Virus record (IMG/VR): IMGVR_UViG_3300046011_005042
Location: 1 to 25,933 of that record
DNA: 25,933 bases
Strand: one strand, 5' to 3'
DNA from: a virus
In this document: piece by piece, positions 5,797 to 25,812 of the stretch
Position numbering within the stretch: position 1 is the first letter of the stretch
Layout: each line of letters starts with the position of its first letter
Notes under the pieces: generated by a model
What the model was told of the DNA's origin: nothing
Database searches by the model: none
What the model saw: the letters and a program-made list of their open reading frames with translations, nothing else
Program-made: the position numbers and the translations under genes

Positions 5797-6426
5797 TTAT
5801 ATCCTACATTTACCATCTTCACATAAAATTGATGTAATAATACTATTTACACCACTATATTTATTTGTTGTTATATTTTTATTAGTTGATTCATTCATGC
5901 TCGTAGGCCGCATAAAAGCCCCATGAGTTGATGGATTAGAAACAAAGTCCCAACATATCAATTCAAAATCTTCTTGAACTTCTACTACACCTTCACTACG
6001 TAATTCTTTAACTGACCCCATTCCTCTACTAGAAATACCTAATGTAATTCCTGCTTTAAACAATGATTTCAATATGTTTCCAGATGGCGTATCTAGAATT
6101 TGTACTGCTCCACATAAATCATCACCTTTCCACCAAATTTTTAAAACATTGTGTGAAACATTGTTCAAGTTAACTACTGATGATTCTGGATGATCTAATT
6201 CGCCTAATGCTCTATGTTGATCAATATATTCGGTTTGATATCGTTTACATTCTCTTTCTAGAATATGTTTAGGATATATTCTACCATTTTGATTTTTAGC
6301 TCCAGCTCGTTGCAATACACCTTGCACAACAACTCCGCCAGGAATGCCATATGCAGCACCTGATTGCTCGGTTAATGTCCCGACAGGTTTAAATGGTATA
6401 TATTCTACAATTAACTGCTTTGACAT
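5797..6426 (-). CDS. 21: Prohead core protease, T4 gp21-like
   Basis: This 209-residue serine protease matches the T4 gp21 (S77) family, which matures the head by cutting scaffold, capsid and internal proteins after Leu/Ile-x-Glu type sites. The conserved parts are NGRIYPKHILERE (47-59), LGELDHPE (74-81) with the probable catalytic His79, GITLGISSRGMGS (126-138) with the catalytic Ser at 132 or 133, and CWDFVSNPSTHGA (158-170) with the probable third residue Asp160. The C-terminal 35 residues (from about TSMNES) are Asn/Thr/Ser rich and probably a removable tail, as in the self-processing T4 enzyme. AGGAG stands 6 bases before the ATG. The gene starts one base after the preceding stop codon. 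Confidence 0.95.
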   Translation of the reverse strand: MSKQLIVEYIPFKPVGTLTEQSGAAYGIPGGVVVQGVLQRAGAKNQNGRIYPKHILERECKRYQTEYIDQHRALGELDHPESSVVNLNNVSHNVLKIWWKGDDLCGAVQILDTPSGNILKSLFKAGITLGISSRGMGSVKELRSEGVVEVQEDFELICWDFVSNPSTHGAFMRPTSMNESTNKNITTNKYSGVNSIITSILCEDGKCRI

Positions 6427-8068: not shown

Positions 8069-9904
8069 TTATAAAATATTATTCTCATCTAATAATGTTC
8101 CTGCATCGGAATTTGGTTTCTCTCCCGGTGCCATTGATTCTAGAATGATATTCGATTCGGTTTTATTTTTTGACCTTTTCATTGTTTTTATAACATTCTC
8201 ATGAGCTAAATCCAATTTGCGTTCTCTTCGTGGATCTGGTAAAAAGGCTGTTTTTTGATTTTCAGAATCAAATGCTTGATCAATTTCTTTTTTACCCGTA
8301 GGATCCCATCCGAATGCATTTTTGTGTTGTCCAAATTTAATTCCTTCTTTTGGACGACCGCCTTTGTCTTTATCTTCAACATCATCTGAGCTCATATGCA
8401 TTGATGCTAAATCGTGTGGCGTACCATATGATACTCCCGTAACCGCAGGATCATTTCCTTCTTGTTCTAATTGATTTTGTCGGAATCGTAATTTTAAATC
8501 TTCAATAACATTGGTACGTTCTTGCAACCATTGGTCTTCTGTCATATTAAAGATATATTCATATATGTATTTATCTGATACTAATTTTGAATCTTTCATT
8601 GATGTTGCTAATGTCATTTTTTCAGTCATTAATGCAACTTTTTGTTGATCGTATACAATTGACGGAGCTGTTAATTCTAATTCAAATCCAACTAAATCTT
8701 CTCCTTCATATCCTTGTGCATATAAATGAACAATTGCTATCTTGTATAATTCAGAAGTAACAATTTTTTGAATACGTTCAATTGTTCTAGCAAAACGAAT
8801 ATCCATCGATGCTAATGTAGTTTTACCTTCAACTGCTTCTGCATATCCTAAAAATGGTTTAGGAATTTTAAGAGCAGCCATCATTTTATCTTTAACGTAA
8901 TTGATATCATCAATACCCGTAAATGTCATTCCTGGTAATGTATCAATTGCAGTAGATGATTGTCCTCCTCGCACGGGCAAGTAATAATCTTCCAACATGT
9001 TGTTCAAATTGAATTTTAAATTGTAATTACCAGTTTGTGCATCAACGTGTGGAATTTTTTTCATTTTATTGATAACTTGTTCCATGAATGTATCTACTTC
9101 ATTTGGCGGAATATTACCAATATCAATTTTAAAAATACGTTTTTCCGGAGCACGCATTATTCTATGAATAAGCATTGCATCTTCTAGCATTGTAAGTTTT
9201 TGAAATTCTTTACGTGCTCCTTCTAACATTGATTTACCGTATGGCAAAAAGTTAGAATCAGATAACATTCGGAAATGTGCTACTTCAAATACATCATACA
9301 TTAAACCTGGGCTCGATGCGTGACGAAATTTAATTTTATAATCACCCGTATCTTCTGCAAATTCTTCCCAACGTTCTACTTCATAACTAGAGAAAGGACG
9401 TGCATTAATTACGCCTAATTCATTAGCAATATCAAGTTTTAAAAAGAAATCGCCGTACTTAGTCATGTTTCTAATCCATGGCCAAAGATTAAATTCTATA
9501 TTTAATACATCATAAAATAAATTATAAAGTATTTTTTGTATGTGAGTTTTGTTTGTTTTGATAGTTAGAATATCACCAAATTGATCTGCGAGAGTTGATT
9601 CATCTGCATAAATATCAAGTGCCGCACTTATGATTGGATCTTTATCCATCATTTCGTAATCAGTGTATAACTGCATACGATTTTGATGCATATAATAATT
9701 TGAATCATATCCACCCATACCTCCTACACGATGGCGATTTGAACCATGCAAGCGAGTATATCTATCAGCAACTTTAGTTTGATTTAGATTTCCCGTTGAC
9801 TGTAAACGGTTTGTATCTACAACTTTAAGTTGGTCTTTTCCATAAGCCCGTACGATAACGTTCGTGGCGAACAGATTTTGTAATCGTTTTCTTAATGATG
9901 CCAT
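8069..9904 (-). CDS. 20: Portal vertex protein, T4 gp20-like
   Basis: This 611-residue protein would form the dodecameric ring at one vertex of the head, through which DNA is packaged and ejected and on which the prohead starts. Recognisable gp20 segments are YEMMDKDPIISAALDIYADES (residues about 84-104), RAPEKRIFKIDIGNIPPNEV, the GNYNLKFNLNNMLEDYYLPVRGG stretch, and MAALKIPKPFLGYAEAVEGK in the stem/clip region. The length is somewhat above T4 gp20 (524 residues). The extra residues are mainly a charged C-terminal tail (GRPKEGIKFGQHKN to the end), which ends in an acidic stretch. The gene lies directly downstream of the large terminase, its packaging partner. No Shine-Dalgarno sequence is evident; a junction motif ends 10 bases before the ATG. 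Confidence 0.95.
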   Translation of the reverse strand: MASLRKRLQNLFATNVIVRAYGKDQLKVVDTNRLQSTGNLNQTKVADRYTRLHGSNRHRVGGMGGYDSNYYMHQNRMQLYTDYEMMDKDPIISAALDIYADESTLADQFGDILTIKTNKTHIQKILYNLFYDVLNIEFNLWPWIRNMTKYGDFFLKLDIANELGVINARPFSSYEVERWEEFAEDTGDYKIKFRHASSPGLMYDVFEVAHFRMLSDSNFLPYGKSMLEGARKEFQKLTMLEDAMLIHRIMRAPEKRIFKIDIGNIPPNEVDTFMEQVINKMKKIPHVDAQTGNYNLKFNLNNMLEDYYLPVRGGQSSTAIDTLPGMTFTGIDDINYVKDKMMAALKIPKPFLGYAEAVEGKTTLASMDIRFARTIERIQKIVTSELYKIAIVHLYAQGYEGEDLVGFELELTAPSIVYDQQKVALMTEKMTLATSMKDSKLVSDKYIYEYIFNMTEDQWLQERTNVIEDLKLRFRQNQLEQEGNDPAVTGVSYGTPHDLASMHMSSDDVEDKDKGGRPKEGIKFGQHKNAFGWDPTGKKEIDQAFDSENQKTAFLPDPRRERKLDLAHENVIKTMKRSKNKTESNIILESMAPGEKPNSDAGTLLDENNIL

Positions 9905-9951: not shown

Positions 9952-11529
9952 TTACAACAACCAAGTTAAACTTTCGTCGTCGGTTCCATTATTCCATGAC
10001 CAACCAGTATCTTGTCTGCGTTGGTTGTTGGTGTATATAACTGGATCTGTTTTTGTGAAGTGTGATAAGGCACGTTTATTTAATTCAATGCCTTGTTGTC
10101 TCAATTTAAGTGATGTATCACGTAACCATAAGCCAATACAAAATGCCATTACAAGGTCATCATTATACCCACTTTGTGATTGAGCTTTTCCATTTAGCCA
10201 AACAAATACAAATAATTCTTGTATTAAACGTTTAGATCTAATTATAGGAGTTCGTTCTCGCATATACATTTCTAGAGCTGAAATCATTAATGGACGTGTA
10301 CGTGATGTAGTTGATACTCCCGGAACCATTTGGCTCTTATCTTTCATATCATAACCTTTTTTCAATTGTACATCGGCATCTGTATATCCATCATCTTTAT
10401 ATGTATAAAATAAATTTTGATAACCTCTATCTAATGCTGGTTGTATTGCTGCCCAACCAATGTTTGCATTTTCTATTGCTAGCAATGCATTGTTCCATTC
10501 TGTTGCAACTGTAACTAACATGTTTCCGAAATCATTAGGTGGCATTTTTCCTTTATACTCTGCTACTTGTCGAATATCTAAAGTATCAATAACATGGAAT
10601 GTTGACCAGTCACCGCCGTCCCCTCGCGCAACGTCAGCAATAACCATATAGTCTCGCGAATAGTCCGGATATTCCCAAACCCAATATGCATTATCATATC
10701 CTCGCTTTTCTATAGGCTCTGTACATTTTTCTTCAAATTCCATCAATATAGCACCATCAATTACAGTATGACCAGATGAAATAAAGTCACAATCACATTC
10801 TTGTGCTGCACCACGTTCACCTAATAATTGTGTTTGTTGATCTCGCCAAGCTTGATCTCGTTCGGGATGCACTGTCCAATGCAGTTTAATTGTATGGAAT
10901 CCGTTGATTGCAGCTTCAGCATCTGCCCATGTTTGATGAAACCAATTACCTACCCCATTCGGAGTAGATAAAACTATAGCACCACCACCCGTTGATAGTG
11001 TTGCTTGTGAGGCTATCCATATTTCTTCAATGTTTCGAATAAATGCAGCTTCATCAATGATTAACAATGATAATGCCTCAGAACGTGCACCGGTTGTTGC
11101 GGATGATACTGCTTTTATTTGTGAACCGTTTTTAAATTTAAGTGATAGTTTATTATCTGCTTCAACCGTTCCCTTGAGCCAACTTGGTAAATTTTCATGC
11201 ATCACGCGCACTTTAGTTACTAAGTTTTTTGCTACTTCTTGTGTCGTTGCAATAACAAGTACATTGAAATCTTCCTTGAACAACATGCTCCATAGTGCAA
11301 AACCGGCAGATAATGTTGATATACCTAACTGTCGAGATTTCAATATAACGCTGTATCTGTTATCTCGTAATTCGGTTAATGAATCTTCCTGAAATGGAAA
11401 CAAATTAAATTTAATTTTTCCTTTTTTAGGATGTTGAATATAACAATATTGTCTCATAAAAAACACAGGATCTTTAGCACACATTTGATATTGTTGCTGA
11501 ATAATCTGTTTTATGTTTGGTTGAGACAT
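9952..11529 (-). CDS. 17: Terminase large subunit, T4 gp17-like
   Basis: This 525-residue protein is the DNA-packaging motor and headful nuclease. The N-terminal ATPase has a Walker A-type KSRQLGIS at residues 64-71, Walker B LLIIDE at 155-160 with the catalytic Glu160, and the coupling motif LSTPNG at 187-192. The C-terminal RNase H-like nuclease has acidic residues in VIADVARGDGGD (Asp299), LAIEN (Glu353) and NDDLVMAF (Asp457/458). The length is somewhat shorter than T4 gp17 (610 residues), mainly at the N terminus. It lies directly upstream of the portal gene. No gp16 homologue is evident immediately before it; the T4 position of the small subunit is taken by two membrane proteins. No Shine-Dalgarno sequence precedes the ATG. 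Confidence 0.96.
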   Translation of the reverse strand: MSQPNIKQIIQQQYQMCAKDPVFFMRQYCYIQHPKKGKIKFNLFPFQEDSLTELRDNRYSVILKSRQLGISTLSAGFALWSMLFKEDFNVLVIATTQEVAKNLVTKVRVMHENLPSWLKGTVEADNKLSLKFKNGSQIKAVSSATTGARSEALSLLIIDEAAFIRNIEEIWIASQATLSTGGGAIVLSTPNGVGNWFHQTWADAEAAINGFHTIKLHWTVHPERDQAWRDQQTQLLGERGAAQECDCDFISSGHTVIDGAILMEFEEKCTEPIEKRGYDNAYWVWEYPDYSRDYMVIADVARGDGGDWSTFHVIDTLDIRQVAEYKGKMPPNDFGNMLVTVATEWNNALLAIENANIGWAAIQPALDRGYQNLFYTYKDDGYTDADVQLKKGYDMKDKSQMVPGVSTTSRTRPLMISALEMYMRERTPIIRSKRLIQELFVFVWLNGKAQSQSGYNDDLVMAFCIGLWLRDTSLKLRQQGIELNKRALSHFTKTDPVIYTNNQRRQDTGWSWNNGTDDESLTWLL

Positions 11530-11911: not shown

Positions 11912-12243
11912 TTTTTCTTTTTCTTGTTTGTTTTATTCAAGATATTTTCTTTAGCTTGTTTTGCAGTTTTAGGAGTAGTTGTAGTTACTTCTTGTTTTTT
12001 TTCTTCTAACTCTTTAACTTCTGTCGTTAATGCTGTAATATCTTTTTTAATATCAGTTTTTTGATCTTCAATTGCATCAACTTTACCAGATATAACATCT
12101 GCTTGTTGTTTGTTATCATCAATTTTTTTATCTGATTTTGCAAGTTGCTTATCATTTAATTTTTTGTTTACAGCTATTCCAATTCCGAATGCTGCTAGTA
12201 TTGCGCCTACTATAATTGCCCAATATTTTTTAATTATTTTCAT
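11908..12243 (-). CDS. Small membrane protein with coiled coil and lysine-rich tail (111 aa)
   Basis: The first in-frame ATG is at 12255, but GGAG lies 6 bases before the ATG at 12241-12243, so I choose that start (MKIIKKYWAIIVGAILAAFG). One membrane segment spans residues about 8-25. It is followed by a highly charged coiled coil (KLNDKQLAKSDKKIDDNKQQ through KELEEKKQE), a Thr/Pro linker, and a lysine-rich C terminus ending NKKKKK. This resembles an inner-membrane spanin or a structural membrane anchor, but holin function is unlikely with a single helix and a long charged tail. It overlaps the 215-residue gene by 14 bases and the next gene by ATGA, forming a tightly coupled set with a second membrane protein. 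Function is not established. Confidence 0.72.
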   Translation of the reverse strand: MKIIKKYWAIIVGAILAAFGIGIAVNKKLNDKQLAKSDKKIDDNKQQADVISGKVDAIEDQKTDIKKDITALTTEVKELEEKKQEVTTTTPKTAKQAKENILNKTNKKKKK

Positions 12244-12877
12244 TGTTTTCTCCATTTAATTTTTTTAAAAAGTTTTCTTTGAATTCTGCAAAGCTTTTTT
12301 CTATTTTATCTTCGAACTCCTCTGGCGACATTCTTGCTGCATATGATTCTGTTTCGCCATCACCATTAAGTACAAATTTAGAAGCTTCTGTATATGTTTT
12401 CTTTAACATCATGACATCTTGTTCAGCATCTCGTAACCATGCTAGTGCATTTTCTCGTATTTTATTATGAGCATATTCATCAAATGTTCCATCTTTTTTC
12501 ATTTGATGTTCCATTTCAATTACACAGTCAAAACACATACCATGTATCTTTCTCATTTTTTCATCAAGTTGATTTGCTTGATAACATGTACATGTTGCTT
12601 TTTGACATTTTGGAAATGCTCGTAATTCATCTCGTACTTCTTGAAATAAATCAGAATTTTTTGTTTTACGTATTCGAAACCCTTCTTTTTGTTCTATGAT
12701 GTATACATGGCCATGTGCGTCTGTTTCTTCCCACGTATCACCCACTTCATGACGTTGTGCTTTTTTAGCCATGGCTTCAGCATCAGAAAACCCTATTGAT
12801 TTTTTGGTTTGGAACTTGTGTGTGCCGTCAATCATTTGTTGTACGGCTTTGATGTTTTGTAACTTGTTATTTGACAT
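12230..12877 (-). CDS. Cys-cluster protein of unknown function upstream of terminase (215 aa)
   Basis: Residues about 42-72 look like a small beta-rich domain (GDTWEETDAHGHVYIIEQKEG). Then comes a cluster Cys91, Cys96, Cys98, Cys115 and Cys118 (CTC and CFDC with His112 nearby), which looks like a small zinc-binding knuckle. The C-terminal half is helical and ends in an acidic Asn-rich tail. I know of no function. It lies two genes upstream of the large terminase, so a role as the small terminase subunit or another DNA-binding packaging factor deserves testing, but the typical gp16 pattern is not visible. The start at 12875-12877 is 7 bases after the preceding stop and has no Shine-Dalgarno sequence. 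It overlaps the next gene by 14 bases. Confidence 0.78.
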   Translation of the reverse strand: MSNNKLQNIKAVQQMIDGTHKFQTKKSIGFSDAEAMAKKAQRHEVGDTWEETDAHGHVYIIEQKEGFRIRKTKNSDLFQEVRDELRAFPKCQKATCTCYQANQLDEKMRKIHGMCFDCVIEMEHQMKKDGTFDEYAHNKIRENALAWLRDAEQDVMMLKKTYTEASKFVLNGDGETESYAARMSPEEFEDKIEKSFAEFKENFLKKLNGENNENN

Positions 12878-12884
12878 ATATTAT

Positions 12885-13715
12885 TTATTTTTCAGTTTCG
12901 TCATTGCTAGGCTGTGCCGGTTTTATTTTAGCTAATCTACGTAAAATCATAATCTTAGCTAATTTTAAATCTTTAACATCTAGATTACCTAATGCTTTTG
13001 CTAATGGATCAAATCCGGTATCAACTAGGCTATTTGGACCTGTTTGATCAGATAACATTTCTTCCCAATATTTCAAAGCAATTTTTTGTTTAGCAATTTT
13101 TTCTTTTGCTTTATCTTCCGGAGATGCTGTTGTTTCGTCAGGAGTTGGGGTTGTTGGTGCTGCAGGTGTAGGTGCTGCAGGTGGTGCTGCATTTGGGTCT
13201 GGAGCTGCTAAATCTGGTGCAGGTGCTGCATTTGGATCTGCGGGTGGTGCTGCATTTGGATCTGCAGGTGGTGCTGCATTTGGATCAGGTTCTTCCGTCT
13301 CTTTGTCTTCTTGTTCAATCAATTGTTTAACTATAGTACGGCGAACATATTCTCTAACTAAACGTTCTTTTTGTTCTCTAGTTAAATTTTCTACTTTATC
13401 TTTAAGTACAGCTGATGTTTCTTTTTCTTCGTTGTCTTGACGTTTTTTAAGGATTTTTGCTGCATGCTTTGCATCATACTCGCCATCTTCTAAATCTTTA
13501 TATAATCGATCATCGGAATTATACTTAACATCATAATTACCATCATCTTGAACTGTTTTATCAGTTTTACGTAAAACATTTGATAATTTTTCTTTTGTAG
13601 AATATGGATTAAGTTTTCCGTCTTTATCATCCATAGTATAATCTTTCAAATCTTTTCTAGATTTATATTTTGTATTTTCTGGTTTTTTGTATTTGCTTTT
13701 GTGTTTTTCAGCCAT
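12885..13715 (-). CDS. Low-complexity protein with Ala/Pro/Asp repeats (276 aa)
   Basis: No family is recognised. The N-terminal third is very lysine and aspartate rich (MAEKHKSKYKKPENTKYKSR), with a Tyr-Asp pattern around residues 55-85 and a helical segment (LTREQKERLVREYVRRTIVK) at about 111-131. The middle, about residues 147-195, is a flexible linker of DPNAAPPA units and related Ala/Pro/Thr residues. The C-terminal 75 residues form a helical domain (EKIAKQKIALKYWEEMLS) ending basic and polar. A two-domain protein joined by a flexible arm is likely, probably virion-associated or a core component given its late-gene neighbours. AGGA lies 8 bases before the ATG at 13713-13715, and a junction motif overlaps the stop of the upstream ligase gene. 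Confidence 0.75.
   Translation of the reverse strand: MAEKHKSKYKKPENTKYKSRKDLKDYTMDDKDGKLNPYSTKEKLSNVLRKTDKTVQDDGNYDVKYNSDDRLYKDLEDGEYDAKHAAKILKKRQDNEEKETSAVLKDKVENLTREQKERLVREYVRRTIVKQLIEQEDKETEEPDPNAAPPADPNAAPPADPNAAPAPDLAAPDPNAAPPAAPTPAAPTTPTPDETTASPEDKAKEKIAKQKIALKYWEEMLSDQTGPNSLVDTGFDPLAKALGNLDVKDLKLAKIMILRRLAKIKPAQPSNDETEK
13222..13290 (-). repeat. 24-bp tandem repeat coding for DPNAAPPA units
   Basis: Three consecutive copies (the last partial) of a 24-base unit start at 13222, 13246 and 13270 with one or two differences. A fourth related copy starts at 13183. Copy number could vary between related phages through slippage. Confidence 0.85.
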
Positions 13716-13734: not shown

Positions 13735-13751
13735 TATAAATATAAATATCA
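13735..13751 (-). promoter_or_regulatory. Recurrent AT-rich junction motif
   Basis: The coding strand reads TGATATTTATATTTATA. The TGA is the stop codon of the nucleotidyltransferase-ligase gene, and the motif ends 19 bases before the next start. The core is doubled here (TATTTATATTTATA). Confidence 0.5.
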
Positions 13752-15773
13752 CCGTGCGTACTTTAATACCCCTAATATTTGATTGACTGGCGCAAATGCT
13801 CCGGTTAGCTTGTATGTATTGCCACCATATACAAATACTACGCCTTCAGATGGTACAATTGCTTCAAATCCACCTAACCGTTGTATACGTTTTAATTCGT
13901 GCTCTAATTTCTTGATACTATTAATATCATTAGTTGTTTGCAATTCTCGAATTAAATCTGCTAAATCCTTTTTTAATTCTTGTGCAGATTTAGATGTATT
14001 TGCTGCTAAAAAGTTTTGAGCATTACGTAACACTACTGCACCTAATCTTAAAAAGATAGATTCAAACGGCTCCATGTTTTGTTTGTAATACGTTTTAAAA
14101 TCTTTTTTATCAAATTCAGTTACCCAATTTGCAAAGTCAACGTTATCAATTTGTTTTTTAACTGCAACTATGCTTGTTGACTTATCAAAGAATGCCCAAC
14201 GATTAATTAATAAAGACAATATACTATCTGGAATTTCATATCCGACAGCTTGTGCTTTTTCTCGTATTATATCTGCCCACCAAGCCTTGTGATAATCAGA
14301 AACTAAATCAGTATCTTTTAAATTATATCTAGATTCTAATTGATCTACTTCACTAAAAAATGCAGCTTGTTGATCTTCAAAATCTTCTAATCTACCAATT
14401 TTAATTCGTTGCGGAGGAATAAATGAAAATGTTTTTTGCAAATGTGCGTTAGCATCTTGTATAATACCTTGTAATGCACCACCACCCGTTAAATCTGTTT
14501 GAACAGTGTTTCCTGCTTCATCATATTCTACTAAATTGTGAAATTGTAATACAGCAACATCATATGAAATTACATTTTTAGTTGCAGGATAAATAATTTC
14601 CATGTTAGCAAATACTCGTCCATTCTTAAAAATGCCATTTAAAGTTTCAGGATCGACACGATTAAATGCTTCTGCTAAATCTTCTGCTGCATTACCAAAT
14701 GCATCTGATATAGGCCCTCGTCCTCCGAACTTGTCTTGTATTTCTTGTACTGACATTGGATTAATTACAGTACCTTTATTACGAGCAAAACCAATTTGAT
14801 TATTTTTATATGTTACTTGAATATTTTGGCCATCCGTTTTTTCAGTTACTGCGGCTTCAATATCTAAATATCCTCCTAATGCACGTGCAATAATTTCTTT
14901 TACATCTCCAAATGATAATGAATGATCATCATATGGATGTGCCATATGTCCTGCTGCACCACCTTCTTTAATTATTTGAATTGCTTCAGTTAAAGGAACT
15001 CCATAAACCGTTTTTTCAAAATCTGCAAAATCATATATAAATGGTTTGCCGAAATTTGAATCTAAAAACTTTTTTAATTTAGAAATTTTATGTTTGTGTT
15101 TTTCAGAAGTTTTAGGATCCATATATCCTTCAACTATATCAAAAATATCTTCTTGTAAATTTTTACCCCACCATTCTTTTGAAAACAATGATTCTTGTAC
15201 ACCTTTTAATATTTGCCATATATTTTTTACTTCAGCATCATTTTGCCCGGGATATGAAGCTCGAAATGTAGCATAATCATCATTTGCTAATGCAACACGT
15301 ATTGTTGATGCTGAAATTGGTTCTCCTGATTTATATAGTAACGGATCAATATCAATATTTAATTCCGTTGCATCTACTCCGGAAGGAATTTTGCGTCCTT
15401 TTTTATCTCCAATTGTTTTGTATTTATCTACATTTGGAACAAAATCTTTAGCACGTACATAATCATCTCCTTTTGTTGATGCTGCCATTGCAAATCGACC
15501 TTGTACATCAGCTGGAAGTGCAAACAAATATTCATATGCAGCCATTATTGGAGAATTGAATTCAGTAGGTTGAATTGTGATGTTTGTATTACGATTAATC
15601 AAATTGAATATATCAATTGTTTTTTCTCGGGTAATTCCATCGCGATCCTTAGGCCCAATAAGAAGAATTACTCGATCGGTGTCAGGGTGTTGAGCATAAC
15701 GTTCTGCTAATGCTAAATGAGCTCCGGTTAATGGCTTGAATCCGCCTGGAAATAACGTTGTTATTTTGTTCAT
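13749..15773 (-). CDS. Fused HIGH-type nucleotidyltransferase and polynucleotide ligase
   Basis: This 674-residue protein joins two enzymes. Residues 1 to about 190 are an adenylyl/cytidylyltransferase of the HxGH class: FPGGFKPLTGAHLALAERY (8-26) with the GxH signature at 17-19, and ISASTIR (153-159) as the second nucleotide-binding motif. NMN or pantetheine-phosphate adenylyltransferases are the nearest types; the substrate cannot be read from sequence. From about 270 a covalent nucleotidyltransferase fold of RNA/DNA ligases follows: KTDG with Lys312 as the probable AMP-carrying lysine, RNKG (331-334), VFANMEIIYP with Glu392, EGVVF with Glu643, and Lys655 in YKLTG. About 250 residues separate Glu392 from Glu643, more than is usual, and include a coiled coil (594-632). 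An RNA-repair or NAD-linked role is inferred. No clear Shine-Dalgarno sequence. Confidence 0.85.
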   Translation of the reverse strand: MNKITTLFPGGFKPLTGAHLALAERYAQHPDTDRVILLIGPKDRDGITREKTIDIFNLINRNTNITIQPTEFNSPIMAAYEYLFALPADVQGRFAMAASTKGDDYVRAKDFVPNVDKYKTIGDKKGRKIPSGVDATELNIDIDPLLYKSGEPISASTIRVALANDDYATFRASYPGQNDAEVKNIWQILKGVQESLFSKEWWGKNLQEDIFDIVEGYMDPKTSEKHKHKISKLKKFLDSNFGKPFIYDFADFEKTVYGVPLTEAIQIIKEGGAAGHMAHPYDDHSLSFGDVKEIIARALGGYLDIEAAVTEKTDGQNIQVTYKNNQIGFARNKGTVINPMSVQEIQDKFGGRGPISDAFGNAAEDLAEAFNRVDPETLNGIFKNGRVFANMEIIYPATKNVISYDVAVLQFHNLVEYDEAGNTVQTDLTGGGALQGIIQDANAHLQKTFSFIPPQRIKIGRLEDFEDQQAAFFSEVDQLESRYNLKDTDLVSDYHKAWWADIIREKAQAVGYEIPDSILSLLINRWAFFDKSTSIVAVKKQIDNVDFANWVTEFDKKDFKTYYKQNMEPFESIFLRLGAVVLRNAQNFLAANTSKSAQELKKDLADLIRELQTTNDINSIKKLEHELKRIQRLGGFEAIVPSEGVVFVYGGNTYKLTGAFAPVNQILGVLKYAR

Positions 15774-18831: not shown

Positions 18832-18846
18832 TTATTATAAATATCA
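18832..18846 (-). promoter_or_regulatory. Recurrent AT-rich junction motif
   Basis: The coding strand reads TGATATTTATAATAA. The TGA is the stop codon of the gp47-gp46 fusion gene, and the motif ends 14 bases before the fibre-gene ATG. It marks the switch from DNA-metabolism genes to structural genes. Confidence 0.52.
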
Positions 18847-21800
18847 AACATGATTAATCTTGCTAAATCCTTGTGTCTTGTTTACTTCAATTAAATTGTC
18901 GACCATATCTCGCATTGAATCAACGTGTGAAATGATAATTGAAAAATCAAATTTAGTTCGGAAATATTCAAATAAATTTACTACAGAAGAAATGTGTTCT
19001 GAATCTAAACTTCCCCAACCTTCATCGATTGCAATGAAATTAGGACGAGGTAGTGCCGAAACATTGATAAGTGCTATGCGAATTGCTAAAGATGAAATAA
19101 AACGTTCCATTCCGCTTGTTAATTCTAATGGCCAAAAATTGTCTTCATCATATATGATATAACCATTAATGTTTTTACCATCCGTGTTCATTACCATGTT
19201 GAATTCAACAATTTGATTAAGTACATTGTTTATTTCAGCTTCTATTTTAGGAAGAGCTTTTGTAATTAATTCATATGGAATGCCATCTCGTTTAACTGAT
19301 TCTAAATAATAACCATATGCTTTGTATTCAGTTTCAAGTTGTTGATAACGTTCCAATTGTTGCATTGCCGTAGATTTTTGTGTTTTTGCTACTTCAATTG
19401 CCCCATAATTATTTTTAATTTGATTTTGAATTGTTTTGATTTGTTCTGATATATTTGCAATTTGTTTTTTGCAAGATTCAATTTCAATGTCAATAGTTCG
19501 ATTGTGTTTAATTGCCGTTTCATTTTGGCGAAATGATTCTTGTCGTTCAACTGCCGTTTCTAATTCAGATTCTCGGGTTTGCAAATCACTTTCTAAGATT
19601 TGAAGTTGCAATTCATTGCGTTCTTTTGTAATTGTTTTTGTTGCAATAGTATTACGTAACGCATTAAGTTGTTCCGTTTGTTCAAATACCGGGTTTAATA
19701 TTTTCAATTCATTGTTTAACGTTGCAATTCTTTCTTTTAAAGAATCTAATACATTTCTATCTTGGTCAATTGTATTTTGAGCTTCGATTGCATTTCGTAC
19801 GAAAACGTTAGATGTACAGTATTGACATTGCGGATCATATTCATGGTCGGCAAGGTGATTAATTTTTTCTTGTTTTGCATTTACTATCTCCTGTTGTTGG
19901 CGTAATTTTTGTAAAAGTGTATTGACTGAATGTTCTTTTGCAGAGTATTGTTTTGTTTGTTCTGTTATAGTTGGTATATCAAATTGAGCCAACGTTGATT
20001 TATGTTCACTGATAGTTGCAATCAAAGATTCTAAATCAAATTCCGCAGTTTCAATGTCTGTTTGAATTGATTCAATATGTTCAATCAATGTTGCTTCTTG
20101 TTTTTTTAATTCTTCAATATCTGGGCCATTATAAGATGTTGGTAGTTTCGTTTCAATAAATGTAACAATTTGTTCTTGAAGTGAGTTACGACGATCTTGC
20201 AATACATCTTCTTCAGTTTCCAATGCCGTAATTGTTTCTTGGTTGTCGGTAATAATGTTATCAGAATTAATAATAATTTCAGCAAAATCCGTTTTCTTAT
20301 AATCTTTTAAACGACCTGCAGTTTCTTTTATTTCATCAGCTGCGAGTTGATAAAGTTGTTCAAATACCGTAATATCTAAAAATTGTGAAAGCAAATCTTT
20401 GCGTTCTTTTTGAGACTTTTCAATAAAGTTATTGTTATCTGCTTGAAGTGAAAATGCCGTTAAAATAAAATCATCATACGTTCCTAGGTAGCGACGTATA
20501 CTTTTATTTGTATCACTTCGTTCTTCTCCGTTTAAATTTTCTGTTTCAGTATAAAAATCAACATCAACTTTTACGTGTGTTTCTTTCTTTTTATTTTGAG
20601 TACCTCGACGTTCAATTGTATATATGATTCCATTCATTTCAAATTTGAATAAACCCCGGAACCAAGTTTTTTTATTGTTTAATATTTCATTTGCTTTGCC
20701 TGTTTTACTACATTTATCAAATATAGTATATGTTATTGCATCTAACAAAGACGACTTACCAGATGTGTTTGCTGCAAATAAACCGCATACATCAGATAAA
20801 TTTTCAAAGTTTAACGTGTTGCCTTCACCATATGAAAACATGTTATCGAATTCAAATGATATCGGATGCCATGTTGTATGACGAATTGATTCAACTGCTG
20901 GAAGTTTAGAATTAATTGTACGGTTAATATGTCTAATTGCGTCTACTTCTTCTGCTGTTGCTTGAGGAAAATGTGAATCTATATAATCTGATAATAACGT
21001 ATTTTGATATTCTACGTCTCTAACATTACCAATAGCTAAACTAGATGATGCAGCCGTTGCACCATGATCAATCGTACGTTGAATTGTTATATCTTGTACA
21101 TTGTACTTTTTACGAATAGTTGCAATTAGTTTTTTCATTCCAGCTGCACTAGTACCATTAAATTTAATTCTAATACGAGGCTTTTCTGGCATTCGGTGCG
21201 GATGTGATACAATTTTATCACCTTGTGTTTCTAAAGTAACATAACCGTAGTCATTTTCTATTTGTGTAAATTCAGCGCTTCGATTAGCAACATCCCATAC
21301 AAGTATTCCATGATCTAATGCTTCTCCATGATTTTGTTGAATAAGCGATCCAGGATATGCAATTGTACGTGCATCATCTAAAAATTGTGCTGGCTTATGA
21401 ATATCGCCTAACAATGTAATGTCATGACCAGCAAATAATTCTGTTGTTACATGTTCATTTGATATTTGATAACCTATATCCGTTTTAGCAGTATTAACAG
21501 CACCATGGTGCATTGCAATTTTATATGTAGCTGAAAATTGATCAGCTCGTATGTAATCTGCAGGTGTCTTATCGACTGCCATATGATTCCAAACACATCC
21601 ACCTAATTCAAAAAGTCCATTATCTTTTACAAAATGAATATTAGGATTTTGAATAACATCTAATACAGGACTTACTGCATCTACTCGGTGCATATTGTTA
21701 AGATTCATATCATGATTACCTAGAATAACAACGGTAGGTATTTTGAATCCATTAAAGAAATCAACTAGCATTTGAACTAGTTCCGGCGACATATCCAATT

Positions 21801-21990
21801 TGCTATGAACAATATCTCCTGTTACAACTGCGACACTATTTTTAGTAGCGTGGGTTTCCATGTAGTCAAATAAATTTTTAAATACTTGTCGGTATTCAGT
21901 ATGGCGTTTCAATGTACGAATATGTACGTCTGAAATATGAAAAATTTTATCAATCAGTGTAATTGATGTATCAATATGTTTTATGTCCAT
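18844..21990 (-). CDS. 47-46: Fused Mre11-like nuclease and Rad50-like ATPase (T4 gp47-gp46 in one chain)
   Basis: This 1048-residue protein combines both subunits of the recombination nuclease that T4 makes as gp47 (339 residues) and gp46 (560). Residues 1 to about 330 carry metallophosphoesterase motifs: Asp21-Val-His23, GD at 58-59, GNHD at 91-94, HH at 161-162 and GDIH at 195-198. From about 375 an SMC/Rad50 ATPase follows: Walker A AANTSGKSS (406-414), a long coiled coil split by a CQYC zinc-hook (722-725), a signature-like TSGMERF (958-964), Walker B FIAIDE (985-990), D-loop SLD (994-996) and switch His1022. The first Gly of Walker A is Ala406. All active sites otherwise look intact. 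It should process DNA ends for recombination-dependent replication. The gene overlaps the primase gene by 10 bases and starts behind GGGA. Confidence 0.94.
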   Translation of the reverse strand: MDIKHIDTSITLIDKIFHISDVHIRTLKRHTEYRQVFKNLFDYMETHATKNSVAVVTGDIVHSKLDMSPELVQMLVDFFNGFKIPTVVILGNHDMNLNNMHRVDAVSPVLDVIQNPNIHFVKDNGLFELGGCVWNHMAVDKTPADYIRADQFSATYKIAMHHGAVNTAKTDIGYQISNEHVTTELFAGHDITLLGDIHKPAQFLDDARTIAYPGSLIQQNHGEALDHGILVWDVANRSAEFTQIENDYGYVTLETQGDKIVSHPHRMPEKPRIRIKFNGTSAAGMKKLIATIRKKYNVQDITIQRTIDHGATAASSSLAIGNVRDVEYQNTLLSDYIDSHFPQATAEEVDAIRHINRTINSKLPAVESIRHTTWHPISFEFDNMFSYGEGNTLNFENLSDVCGLFAANTSGKSSLLDAITYTIFDKCSKTGKANEILNNKKTWFRGLFKFEMNGIIYTIERRGTQNKKKETHVKVDVDFYTETENLNGEERSDTNKSIRRYLGTYDDFILTAFSLQADNNNFIEKSQKERKDLLSQFLDITVFEQLYQLAADEIKETAGRLKDYKKTDFAEIIINSDNIITDNQETITALETEEDVLQDRRNSLQEQIVTFIETKLPTSYNGPDIEELKKQEATLIEHIESIQTDIETAEFDLESLIATISEHKSTLAQFDIPTITEQTKQYSAKEHSVNTLLQKLRQQQEIVNAKQEKINHLADHEYDPQCQYCTSNVFVRNAIEAQNTIDQDRNVLDSLKERIATLNNELKILNPVFEQTEQLNALRNTIATKTITKERNELQLQILESDLQTRESELETAVERQESFRQNETAIKHNRTIDIEIESCKKQIANISEQIKTIQNQIKNNYGAIEVAKTQKSTAMQQLERYQQLETEYKAYGYYLESVKRDGIPYELITKALPKIEAEINNVLNQIVEFNMVMNTDGKNINGYIIYDEDNFWPLELTSGMERFISSLAIRIALINVSALPRPNFIAIDEGWGSLDSEHISSVVNLFEYFRTKFDFSIIISHVDSMRDMVDNLIEVNKTQGFSKINHV

Positions 21991-23619: not shown

Positions 23620-25812
23620 TTACTTATTACTCAAAACATCTCTATATACACCACTTTTAATAGATGTAGTTACTGACCAAAATGAAGATATTGCTCGTAT
23701 TGCTGCTAATAATGTCACTTTAAATGCAGGACCTGCTGCAGCTTTTGTTACATATATTTTTTCTGTTACTGTTTTACCAAACAATTTTGCTTGTAAACGT
23801 TTGCCGCCATCAGACCAACCACTTCCTGTACCTTGTAATATTGTAGCACCTTTTACTTTAACTATAATAGTTCCATCGTCGCGTACATGCAAAAATGCAT
23901 TTTGATCAAATGCTCCTGGACTTCTTTTTAATAAAAGAGTTGCATCAAACCACCAAACTTTAAGTTTACTATCATATGATGCTGTTACATTTAATGCTTT
24001 AGCAACGTCTTGTATAAAACGTTTAGGTGCTGGCTTTTGTGCTTGTGTACTAGTTTTTGTCGATGTCTTCGTTGTTGATTTAGTAGTAGTAGCTTTTGGT
24101 TTTAAAGATGGTTGTTCGGGAAGATTTCTAAAACTTAATCTATTAATACCGATTTGTAGATTTAACGTTTTATCTTTCCATGCTCCTGCATTGGCGCGAA
24201 TTGCTTGAAATAATGTATCATATATTGCATCGCCAGCTGGCAGTTTGCTAGTATATGTTCCAGTTTTCGTTATTAATTTTCTACCACCATCAGACCATCC
24301 ACTACCAATACCTTGTACAATTTGTTTACCTTCTGATGTAGCAGAAATAGTACCATCATCACGCATATGTAACAATCCATCTACATCCATTTTTCCCGGA
24401 CCTCGTACAATACGTATTTCTAAATCAATATAGTATACTTTTAACTTTTCGCTGTAATGTATACTACCACCTGTTTCTTGAGCTATTTTATCAATACCGC
24501 GGCGATGACCAAAAAGTGTTGCAGTATCAGATTTTTTTGTTTTTTCCGGTGCCTTAGCTTTTTCCGGCTCAGTCGTTTTTGGAACAGTTTTAGTTGATGT
24601 AGATGTTGTTGTTTTAGGAACTTCTTTTTTTGTAGTAGTAACAGGCGTTGGAGTAGTAACAGCTGAAACATCAAACCCTGAAAAATCTTGTTCTCGTAAA
24701 TTAAGTTCAAGAAGTATAGATTTCAATAAAAGTTTAGATTCCGATTTAATTGGAGATAATAATCTATCAATCAATTGTTCTGTTACGTCTGTTGAATTTT
24801 GTACTTTAAAAAATCCTTTATTCAAATCACGTATTACAGCTTTTGATTTATTTCCCCAAATGCCATCAACTGGTTTTGCAATATTGGCAAAATCTTTAAC
24901 AGATGGTATTATTTCTTTTAATGTATATTGTTTTCCATCTACCATAATCTTACTGTTTATTACGCGTTGCATAATAAGCTGTTGGAAGACCTTTGCAGTT
25001 TCGGCATCTGGCGTTGTTTTATTAATTTCTGGTAATAATGCTAGTAATTCTTCTTTAGATAACGCTTTATCTTCACCTTTATCCGTTTTAAATGACAATT
25101 TTTCTAAACTAGTTACTTGTTTTAATACTTTATCATCTTTTTTAACTTCATCATCTTTTTTATCAATAACTACCGAATCATCTTTTTTAGAATCATCTGA
25201 AGATCCATCTTTTTTAGAATCATCTGAAGATCCATCTTTTTTGACAACCACAATTTCTTTTTCATCACTACTAGGAGAATCTACAATTGTATTATTAAGT
25301 ATGTCATTTATTTGTTTGATCAATGTAGCACCAGTTCCCAATGTTTCAGGAATTCTTTCAGCCTTAGGATCGATAGCTGAAACAAAATCACTTACTTTGA
25401 TAATATCGCTACTTCCAACTTTACCCGATGATTTTGGTGTTGTTTTAAATAAAAATTCAATTTCTTCCCATTTTTGCTTTCCTTTATCAACGCCAACTAA
25501 TTTTCGTTTCGGATAAATTAATACATCAGTTACAAGACGTCGTTCTGCTTTTTTACGGTCATCTCCTATTATATAATACCAATCGCCATTTGCAAAACTA
25601 GATGCTGGACCATATTGTGTATTTTTAGGAGATGTTAAAACATACATGACGTCATGTTCAAAATCCGGAGGAGATTTTTCGTCTCTAGTAGCTTTAAATT
25701 TAATTCGAAATACACCTGCCATTAAGTCAGCTGCTTTTGAAATAATTGCATTTGGTGATTTTTTTAATATATAATTTACATCTTCTGTTAATAAGTTTTT
25801 TAACTTGATCAT
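23620..25812 (-). CDS. Large multidomain protein with duplicated C-terminal domain (730 aa)
   Basis: The family is not recognised. The first 10 residues, MIKLKNLLTE, look like a capsid-targeting peptide ending in a gp21-type Leu-x-Glu site. Residues about 28-125 form a mixed alpha/beta domain. A Lys/Asp/Ser linker follows (about 178-228). Residues about 313-335 (KPVDGIWGNKSKAVIRDLNK) resemble the end of a peptidoglycan-binding type 1 domain. After a Thr/Lys/Pro linker, two homologous domains occur at about 438-548 and 598-713, sharing HxRDDGTI, I(V/L)QGxGSGWSDGG and a helical end. There is no membrane segment or clear enzyme motif. It could be an injected internal protein or a virion-bound wall-binding protein; both are inference. 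AAAGG lies 7 bases before the ATG. Confidence 0.82.
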   Translation of the reverse strand: MIKLKNLLTEDVNYILKKSPNAIISKAADLMAGVFRIKFKATRDEKSPPDFEHDVMYVLTSPKNTQYGPASSFANGDWYYIIGDDRKKAERRLVTDVLIYPKRKLVGVDKGKQKWEEIEFLFKTTPKSSGKVGSSDIIKVSDFVSAIDPKAERIPETLGTGATLIKQINDILNNTIVDSPSSDEKEIVVVKKDGSSDDSKKDGSSDDSKKDDSVVIDKKDDEVKKDDKVLKQVTSLEKLSFKTDKGEDKALSKEELLALLPEINKTTPDAETAKVFQQLIMQRVINSKIMVDGKQYTLKEIIPSVKDFANIAKPVDGIWGNKSKAVIRDLNKGFFKVQNSTDVTEQLIDRLLSPIKSESKLLLKSILLELNLREQDFSGFDVSAVTTPTPVTTTKKEVPKTTTSTSTKTVPKTTEPEKAKAPEKTKKSDTATLFGHRRGIDKIAQETGGSIHYSEKLKVYYIDLEIRIVRGPGKMDVDGLLHMRDDGTISATSEGKQIVQGIGSGWSDGGRKLITKTGTYTSKLPAGDAIYDTLFQAIRANAGAWKDKTLNLQIGINRLSFRNLPEQPSLKPKATTTKSTTKTSTKTSTQAQKPAPKRFIQDVAKALNVTASYDSKLKVWWFDATLLLKRSPGAFDQNAFLHVRDDGTIIVKVKGATILQGTGSGWSDGGKRLQAKLFGKTVTEKIYVTKAAAGPAFKVTLLAAIRAISSFWSVTTSIKSGVYRDVLSNK
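25179..25232 (-). repeat. 27-bp direct tandem repeat in the linker of the 730-residue protein
   Basis: Two identical 27-base units (25179-25205 and 25206-25232) are followed by a 10-base partial third copy. They encode repeated KKDGSSDDS units of the charged linker. The identity of the copies suggests a recent duplication. Confidence 0.88.

Follow-up and report, generated by a model that had tools for sequence, protein, structure and literature searches.

A two-module protein of T4-like phages that joins a HIGH-superfamily nucleotidyltransferase to an RNA-ligase-like domain

Gene context and protein architecture

Why would a T4-like phage join a nucleotidyltransferase to a ligase-like domain in one chain, and encode that chain next to its head genes? 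The question is raised by a viral record of 25,933 bases, which was analysed over its whole length (the window). We computed the domains, motifs and conservation of the protein, the order of the head cluster, the shuffling of modules in relatives and the enrichment of candidate cleavage sites. The source record belongs to a T4-like phage; its genes for PhoH, major capsid, prohead protease, portal and terminase follow a T4-like order. Further genes of the window encode a primase, endonuclease I and a fused SbcD/SbcC-type product. The latter (18844-21990) is a single ORF of 1048 aa, which fuses a calcineurin-like phosphoesterase (SbcD/gp47-like) to an SbcC/gp46-like ATPase; in T4, gp47 and gp46 are separate genes.

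The gene under study is encoded on the minus strand, with a structural-type gene on one side and the head cluster on the other. The ORF covers positions 13752-15773 plus the stop codon (13749-15773 in total), and its product of 674 aa consists of a HIGH nucleotidyltransferase (module NT), a linker and an RNA-ligase-like domain (module LIG). Relatives of this protein are encoded by 274 stretches in viral contigs, and this number together with the fixed synteny excludes a chance origin of the motifs. The NT-LIG fusion is kept across the whole window clade (80 full or near-full homologues). Across 81 viral homologues, invariance reaches at least 97% at H19, S154, R159, K312, D314, G315, E392, E643, G644 and K655. 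One cultured phage, Microcystis phage Mel-JY01, possesses a relative with the full architecture, and further relatives are found in jumbo-phage metagenome assemblies. No paper that mentions Mel-JY01, or a packaged RNA ligase of this type, was found in the literature searched. The 674-aa protein is real, conserved and unusual. Most simply, it represents two enzymes in one chain, one of them from an RNA ligase family that is new and, as it appears, restricted to viruses.

HIGH-superfamily nucleotidyltransferase module

Pfam, profile search and Foldseek assign module NT (residues 1-190; 15204-15773, minus strand) to the HIGH-superfamily adenylyl/cytidylyltransferases. The module possesses the nucleotide-binding motif GGFKPLTGAH (residues 10-19; 15717-15746, minus strand), which is at least 97% invariant and ends in T16-G-A-H19, and the second motif of the superfamily, ISASTIR (residues 153-159; 15297-15317, minus strand), with S154 and R159 invariant. 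The GxFxP...H and (I)SxS..R motifs characteristic of the superfamily are thus both present, on a Rossmann-type fold. The initial annotation had named a HIGH-class nucleotidyltransferase from these motifs, and the profiles and fold obtained from relatives agree with it.

The single-sequence Pfam match of the window protein to CTP_transf_like (E=0.017) is below the cut-off. Unfused or marine versions of NT score up to 3e-8 for the same family, with adenylyltransferase profiles nearest. A single-sequence search against solved structures revealed only weak matches to phosphopantetheine adenylyltransferases (PPATs). Searching each module separately by profile, as had been proposed, was productive for one of the two: the NT profile (34 members) matched PPATs with E 1.5e-4, and the ligase profile A4 matched nothing meaningful. 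The fold search with Foldseek retrieved NadM, NadD and PPAT, a NadM-type enzyme being the best match. The NT module reached neither the NMN adenylyltransferase profile TIGR00482 (15 bits against a cut-off of 112) nor the PPAT-specific profile (14 bits against 103). Judged by sequence, PPAT and NMNAT appear equally near to it.

We favour NMN or NaMN as the substrate only because phages are known to encode NAD-rebuilding enzymes against NAD depletion (PMC9503650), so that module NT would most likely act as an NMN/NaMN adenylyltransferase that rebuilds NAD. The HIGH adenylyltransferase is common to NadM, NadR and phage NAD reconstitution (PMC9503650) and to the protein described here. Similar to the marine relatives described below, NadR pairs this enzyme with a P-loop kinase (PMC9503650), but the kinase of the marine relatives is AAA_33/Zeta-like. 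NadV was not noticed in the loci read.

RNA-ligase-like module

Module LIG (residues 271-674; 13752-14963, minus strand) is recognised as an ATP-dependent RNA-ligase-like domain by its conserved motifs, its structural model and its fold matches. All of its motifs are encoded on the minus strand. Motif I, EKTDG (residues 311-315; 14829-14843), contains the KTDG of residues 312-315 and the predicted AMP acceptor K312. It is followed by motif Ia with R331 (14781-14783), motif III, FANME (residues 388-392; 14598-14612), ending in E392, and motif IIIa, LQFHN (residues 409-413; 14535-14549), the H412 of which corresponds to the motif IIIa His of RLIG1. Motif IV, EGVVF (residues 643-647; 13833-13847), includes EGVV 643-646 with E643 and G644 invariant, and motif V is YKLTG (residues 654-658; 13800-13814), with K655 and T657. 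In alignment A5 (30 divergent sequences, 35-78% identical to the window protein) the motif residues (I, Ia, III, IIIa, IV and V) do not vary, R331, H412 and T657 included. The covalent nucleotidyltransferase/ligase core that the initial annotation had deduced from KTDG, E392, EGVV and K655 is borne out; R331 and H412 had been overlooked.

The single-sequence Pfam match to RNA_ligase (E=0.047) is below the cut-off, with 14.3-15.4 bits against a curated value of 27. Because the single-sequence matches of both modules are sub-threshold, the ligase and HIGH assignments are based on conservation, model and relatives. The ligase-only model has a mean pLDDT of 89 and a pTM of 0.86. Its first 24 PDB matches in Foldseek are T4 Rnl2, archaeal Rnl, Rnl1, Naegleria Rnl and Trl1, with 3qwu, a putative DNA ligase, as the sole exception. 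DNA ligases come after these, and a capping enzyme is found far lower. The matches score weakly (best E 2e-3, TM about 0.2), and their E-values are modest because the shared part is the core only. Aligning A5 with the single T4 RnlA and RnlB sequences by hhalign paired parts of the core (motifs I and III with Rnl1, motif I with Rnl2), but at a probability below 1%, too low to count as proof. The motifs of LIG follow the same canonical order as in T4 Rnl1/Rnl2, Trl1 and RLIG1 of the Pfam RNA_ligase clan. From this order and the RNA ligase matches, it is unlikely that K312, E392, E643 and K655 lie outside one pocket.

The initial annotation had also described an insertion of about 250 residues between ligase motifs. 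The distance between motifs III and IV is indeed 251 residues, but the excess over the minimal ligase RLIG1 is only about 185 and lies past motif IIIa. From IIIa to IV there are 231 residues in LIG and 45 in RLIG1 (PMC11494293), whereas the remaining spacings are close (I-Ia 19 versus 16, III-IIIa 20 versus 21, IV-V 12 versus 13). In the ligase-only chain, DSSP of the model identified helices 200-373 as the insertion, mostly with pLDDT >83. They correspond to about residues 445-632 (13878-14441, minus strand). The chain ends 19 residues past K655 without a C-terminal domain, and the subfamily-specific domain of T4 Rnl1/Rnl2 proper is therefore absent. The usual motif V of ligases is K-x-K. Throughout the LIG family it is K-x-T (K655-x-T657), with the first Lys only; RLIG1 is likewise described with a single motif V Lys (PMC11494293).

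The helical insertion, the missing C-terminal domain, K-x-T and the sub-threshold Pfam score distinguish LIG from T4 Rnl1/Rnl2, Trl1 and RLIG1, as does its distribution, since the family was found only in viral-type contigs. A cellular origin is unsupported: the genome-contig search returned no more than five contigs, all short and derived from metagenomes, and phage neighbours are present on L171-L173 and L175. The scan with the ligase of the jumbo-phage relative L083 as query gave no match. A HEPN_AbiA_CTD match at residues 527-613 and scattered Pfam matches in single LIG members were discarded as chance. The mixed alignment A2, in which NT fragments were misplaced, was left out.

As an RNA ligase, the module would be ATP-dependent and act in the 5'-3' direction. 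K312 would take AMP from ATP, and the bound AMP would be passed to a 5'-phosphate RNA end, which would then be sealed to a 3'-OH; the inserted helical domain may stand in for the usual C-terminal RNA-binding domain. It is improbable that the domain instead transfers AMP to another target, such as a protein or a DNA end, or serves as a head component that only binds nucleotide. The lone Lys of motif V, the absence of the usual C-terminal domain and the weak fold scores would fit such a role, yet every motif residue is invariant, the acceptor Lys and the metal-site acids among them, and RNA repair enzymes occur in the same chain in relatives.

Module organisation in related phages

In marine relatives, LIG ends single ORFs of 1,000-2,400 aa. 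The usual order recovered by seed searches is kinase, NT, DDGP, variable modules and ligase, and some relatives also have a CCA-adding enzyme or a Pol-beta transferase in the chain. The kinase module matches AAA_33 (1.5e-8) and Zeta (1e-7), with weaker matches to polynucleotide kinase and seryl-tRNA kinase profiles. The CCA-adding module matches PolyA_pol (5e-31) and possesses RNA-binding and HD domains. One marine ORF of 2428 aa that lacks its start (L087:1-7284) encodes kinase, CCA-adding enzyme, HD, HIGH transferase, several unknown modules and ligase. In another polyprotein (L160:1450-5058), a Zn_protease family module (PF05618) and a Pol-beta transferase are located between the HIGH enzyme and the ligase, and that of L097 has an extra ParB-like module.

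Jumbo phages show different arrangements. A relative of 915 aa (L083:6507-9251) possesses an extra N-terminal ParB-like region, followed by nucleotidyltransferase and ligase. In the jumbo phages L179 and L180, separate genes for ligase, kinase and NT lie next to one another, and in L084 the ligase gene adjoins a gene for a protein with an NT domain. Lak megaphages encode a separate NT relative of 207 aa (L085:6001-6624), and no ligase relative was found in Lak phages.

These arrangements bear on the earlier proposal of one cofactor-coupled RNA enzyme, in which module NT would make or handle a dinucleotide cofactor or cap and module LIG would attach it to RNA ends or remove it. The structural half of the proposal stands, as a HIGH enzyme is joined to an RNA-ligase-type core. 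Coupling within one enzyme could explain the clade-wide fusion and the joint presence of NT and LIG in most complete polyproteins. However, the two are separate genes in jumbo phages, NT occurs in Lak phages, where no ligase relative was detected, other modules are inserted between NT and LIG in marine relatives, and in the window clade a disordered linker with L/I-x-E sites separates them. Because the modules occur unfused, we rank functional coupling of cofactor and RNA end low and consider it improbable.

The suggested link to RNA repair has fared better and is our favoured context, its main support being the PNK-family-like kinase, CCA-adding and Pol-beta nucleotidyltransferase partners in the chains of relatives. 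Phage RNA ligases are known to be accompanied by CCA enzymes and Pol-beta (RlaP) transferases (PMC7824862), and the partners found here are of the same kinds as the PNK, RNA ligase, CCA enzyme and RlaP Pol-beta members of phage RNA repair sets (PMC7824862). Unlike in those sets, the enzymes here form one fused chain or carry head-type N-termini, and their genes lie among head genes. The RNA substrate would most likely be host-cut tRNA. The search of two long window-clade genomes detected no polynucleotide kinase, CCA enzyme or second ligase, which speaks against such a role, since in these phages RNA ends would need healing by host enzymes or have to be ligation-ready. One of the long genomes of the clade (L184:11369-12424) encodes a separate Pol-beta nucleotidyltransferase related to the marine polyprotein module. 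The tRNA genes of the two long records, 0 and 1 in number, likewise speak against it rather than for RNA repair.

The chains also resemble polyvalent proteins as presented in passages of Iyer et al. 2017 (PMC5512222), which unite many enzymatic domains in one phage chain and are predicted to be packaged and early-acting, a likeness that extends to PMC9503650. Similar to these, at least two unrelated enzymatic domains are found here in a chain linked to virion genes. According to the same passages, polyvalent proteins are released by embedded peptidase domains, whereas the borders found here match a separate prohead protease; those passages of PMC5512222 do not describe a ligase/HIGH/kinase set.

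Head gene cluster

All genes of the head cluster discussed here are on the minus strand, as is the ligase gene. The next gene downstream (12885-13715) is the same neighbour in 79/80 homologous loci of the clade. It is followed by a gene for a CxxC protein (12230-12877), the immediate neighbour of the ligase gene in almost every marine relative. The large terminase (gp17-like; 9952-11529) is a homologue of the annotated Mel-JY01 terminase, and the portal (gp20-like; 8069-9904) matches phrog_213 with E 2e-62. The prohead protease (gp21-like; 5797-6426), homologous to the annotated prohead protease of Mel-JY01, is the candidate processing enzyme. Ligase, CxxC protein, terminase, portal, two more head-cluster genes and, where the contig reaches, prohead protease follow one another in this order in nearly all of about 80 divergent marine loci. 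As these loci were all fetched via the ligase, the counts describe conservation of its surroundings and not its frequency among phages. In the reading that we prefer, the protein would be produced late alongside head proteins and then enter the prohead.

Predicted prohead-protease sites and N-terminal peptides

The gp21 protease of T4 cuts after L/I-x-E, and the N-terminal targeting peptides that direct T4 internal proteins into the head end in such a site (PMC9026906, PMC9958956). In the window protein, a disordered linker lies between NT and LIG, and its conserved L/I-x-E sites suggest that the two modules may become separate proteins after cleavage at E208 and E270. The first site ends the segment ESLFSKEWWGKNLQE (residues 194-208; 15150-15194, minus strand), which is followed by D and has the pattern F-S/T-K-x-WW...L-x-E, with E208 conserved at 92%. 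This short segment also recurs before module borders in L087, L097, L098 and L110. The second, IKE followed by G (residues 268-271; 14961-14972, minus strand), is predicted just ahead of the ligase module, and E270 lies in a stretch with pLDDT <50 in the model.

The [IL]-x-E pattern directly precedes the ligase, with G after it, in 36/36 distinct contexts of the window clade, with seven different middle residues. In marine relatives it was found before the ligase in 35/36 distinct contexts (background 4%), before the DDGP module in 15/16 (background 12%) and before the SHSD module in 10/12 (background 4%). The signal is weaker before NT (0.52 vs 0.13) and kinase (0.44 vs 0.11), where V-x-E is common. 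M replaces E at the ligase border (LLLMGG) in L123, L136, L161 and L165, and L083 has no L/I-x-E site at this border.

Unfused ligase, kinase, NT and Pol-beta proteins begin much like T4 IPI-IPIII (MKTYQEFIAE and MKTFKEFTS among the IPII/IPIII/IPI N-termini), with starts such as MKYVNTFAEFIFE, MALLSYTQFLNE and MKFLKSYEEFLNE. The kinase homologue of coliphage Lw1 (gp231), the gene of which is near hoc and inh, starts with MKSFKDFVSLDEA (T4-IP-like MKSFKDFVSLDE). Unfused relatives and the majority of complete marine polyproteins have the targeting peptide; the window protein, which starts with MNKITTLFPGG, lacks it. Similar to the T4 internal proteins and Alt, which are packaged in the head and cut by gp21, the unfused relatives have a targeting peptide ending in L/I-x-E and are encoded with head genes. 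Unlike in those proteins, several enzymes with internal candidate sites form one chain, and the functions point to RNA repair instead of ADP-ribosylation or anti-restriction.

An N-terminal [LIF][LIV]xE is in excess in the two long window-clade genomes (36/298 vs 2.9%, P 6e-13), and proteins with MI[KR]LKxLLxE are among this set. The LysM lysozymes L184:8211-9038 and L191:14470-15246 begin with the same MIRLKxLLxE peptide. Possibly this peptide serves more than head packaging, or the lysozymes may be packaged too; because lysozymes are among the carriers, the N-terminal signal is possibly not head-specific. A 730-aa product of the window without family match (23620-25812) starts with MIKLKNLLTED and so shares the pattern of the MI[KR]LKxLLxE proteins; at least 13 proteins encoded by two related genomes begin in this way.

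One may ask whether the protein simply stays whole, as one intracellular protein for RNA repair and nucleotide metabolism, with L/I-x-E as part of an ordinary linker and the head-cluster position as a matter of gene order only. The lack of a targeting peptide in the window protein would fit this, a linker by itself is no proof of cleavage, and PseT and RnlA, T4's own repair enzymes, are encoded apart from head genes. Nonetheless, [IL]-x-E is kept in the 36 contexts while surrounding and inner residues vary, it appears again where unrelated modules meet, the N-termini of unfused modules are of the T4 head-targeting type, and the location beside gp21 is fixed. We consider an uncut protein rather unlikely, though less so than the coupled enzyme or the non-ligase roles. 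Virion delivery and release by the prohead protease are supported by these patterns, and we infer both.

Proposed role and significance

The reading that we prefer, at about even odds, is that the protein contributes two modules to a head-delivered, protease-released phage set of RNA-end repair and counter-defence enzymes. In the prohead, the gp21-like protease would cut after L/I-x-E, and the freed enzymes would enter the host along with the DNA. A broader and more tentative proposal, which we hold at somewhat less than even, is that widespread aquatic T4-like phages pack an RNA-repair and cofactor polyprotein into the head, cut it with the capsid protease and inject it with the DNA; damage to tRNA and loss of NAD might then be mended before any phage gene is expressed. 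Its core would be an RNA ligase family that is new, confined to viruses and equipped with an inserted accessory domain.

The proposal is directly testable, as the cultured phage Mel-JY01 possesses the gene and the T4-like coliphage Lw1 a homologue of the kinase. If it is correct, it would also add a family of RNA ligases in which the accessory domain occupies a new position, a possible source of new ligation enzymes. Polyprotein processing as a strategy is otherwise known from RNA viruses of eukaryotes. If the proposal is true, a capsid protease would double as a polyprotein-processing enzyme, and these phages would bring ready-made repair tools against tRNA-cutting and NAD-depleting defences of the host inside the particle.
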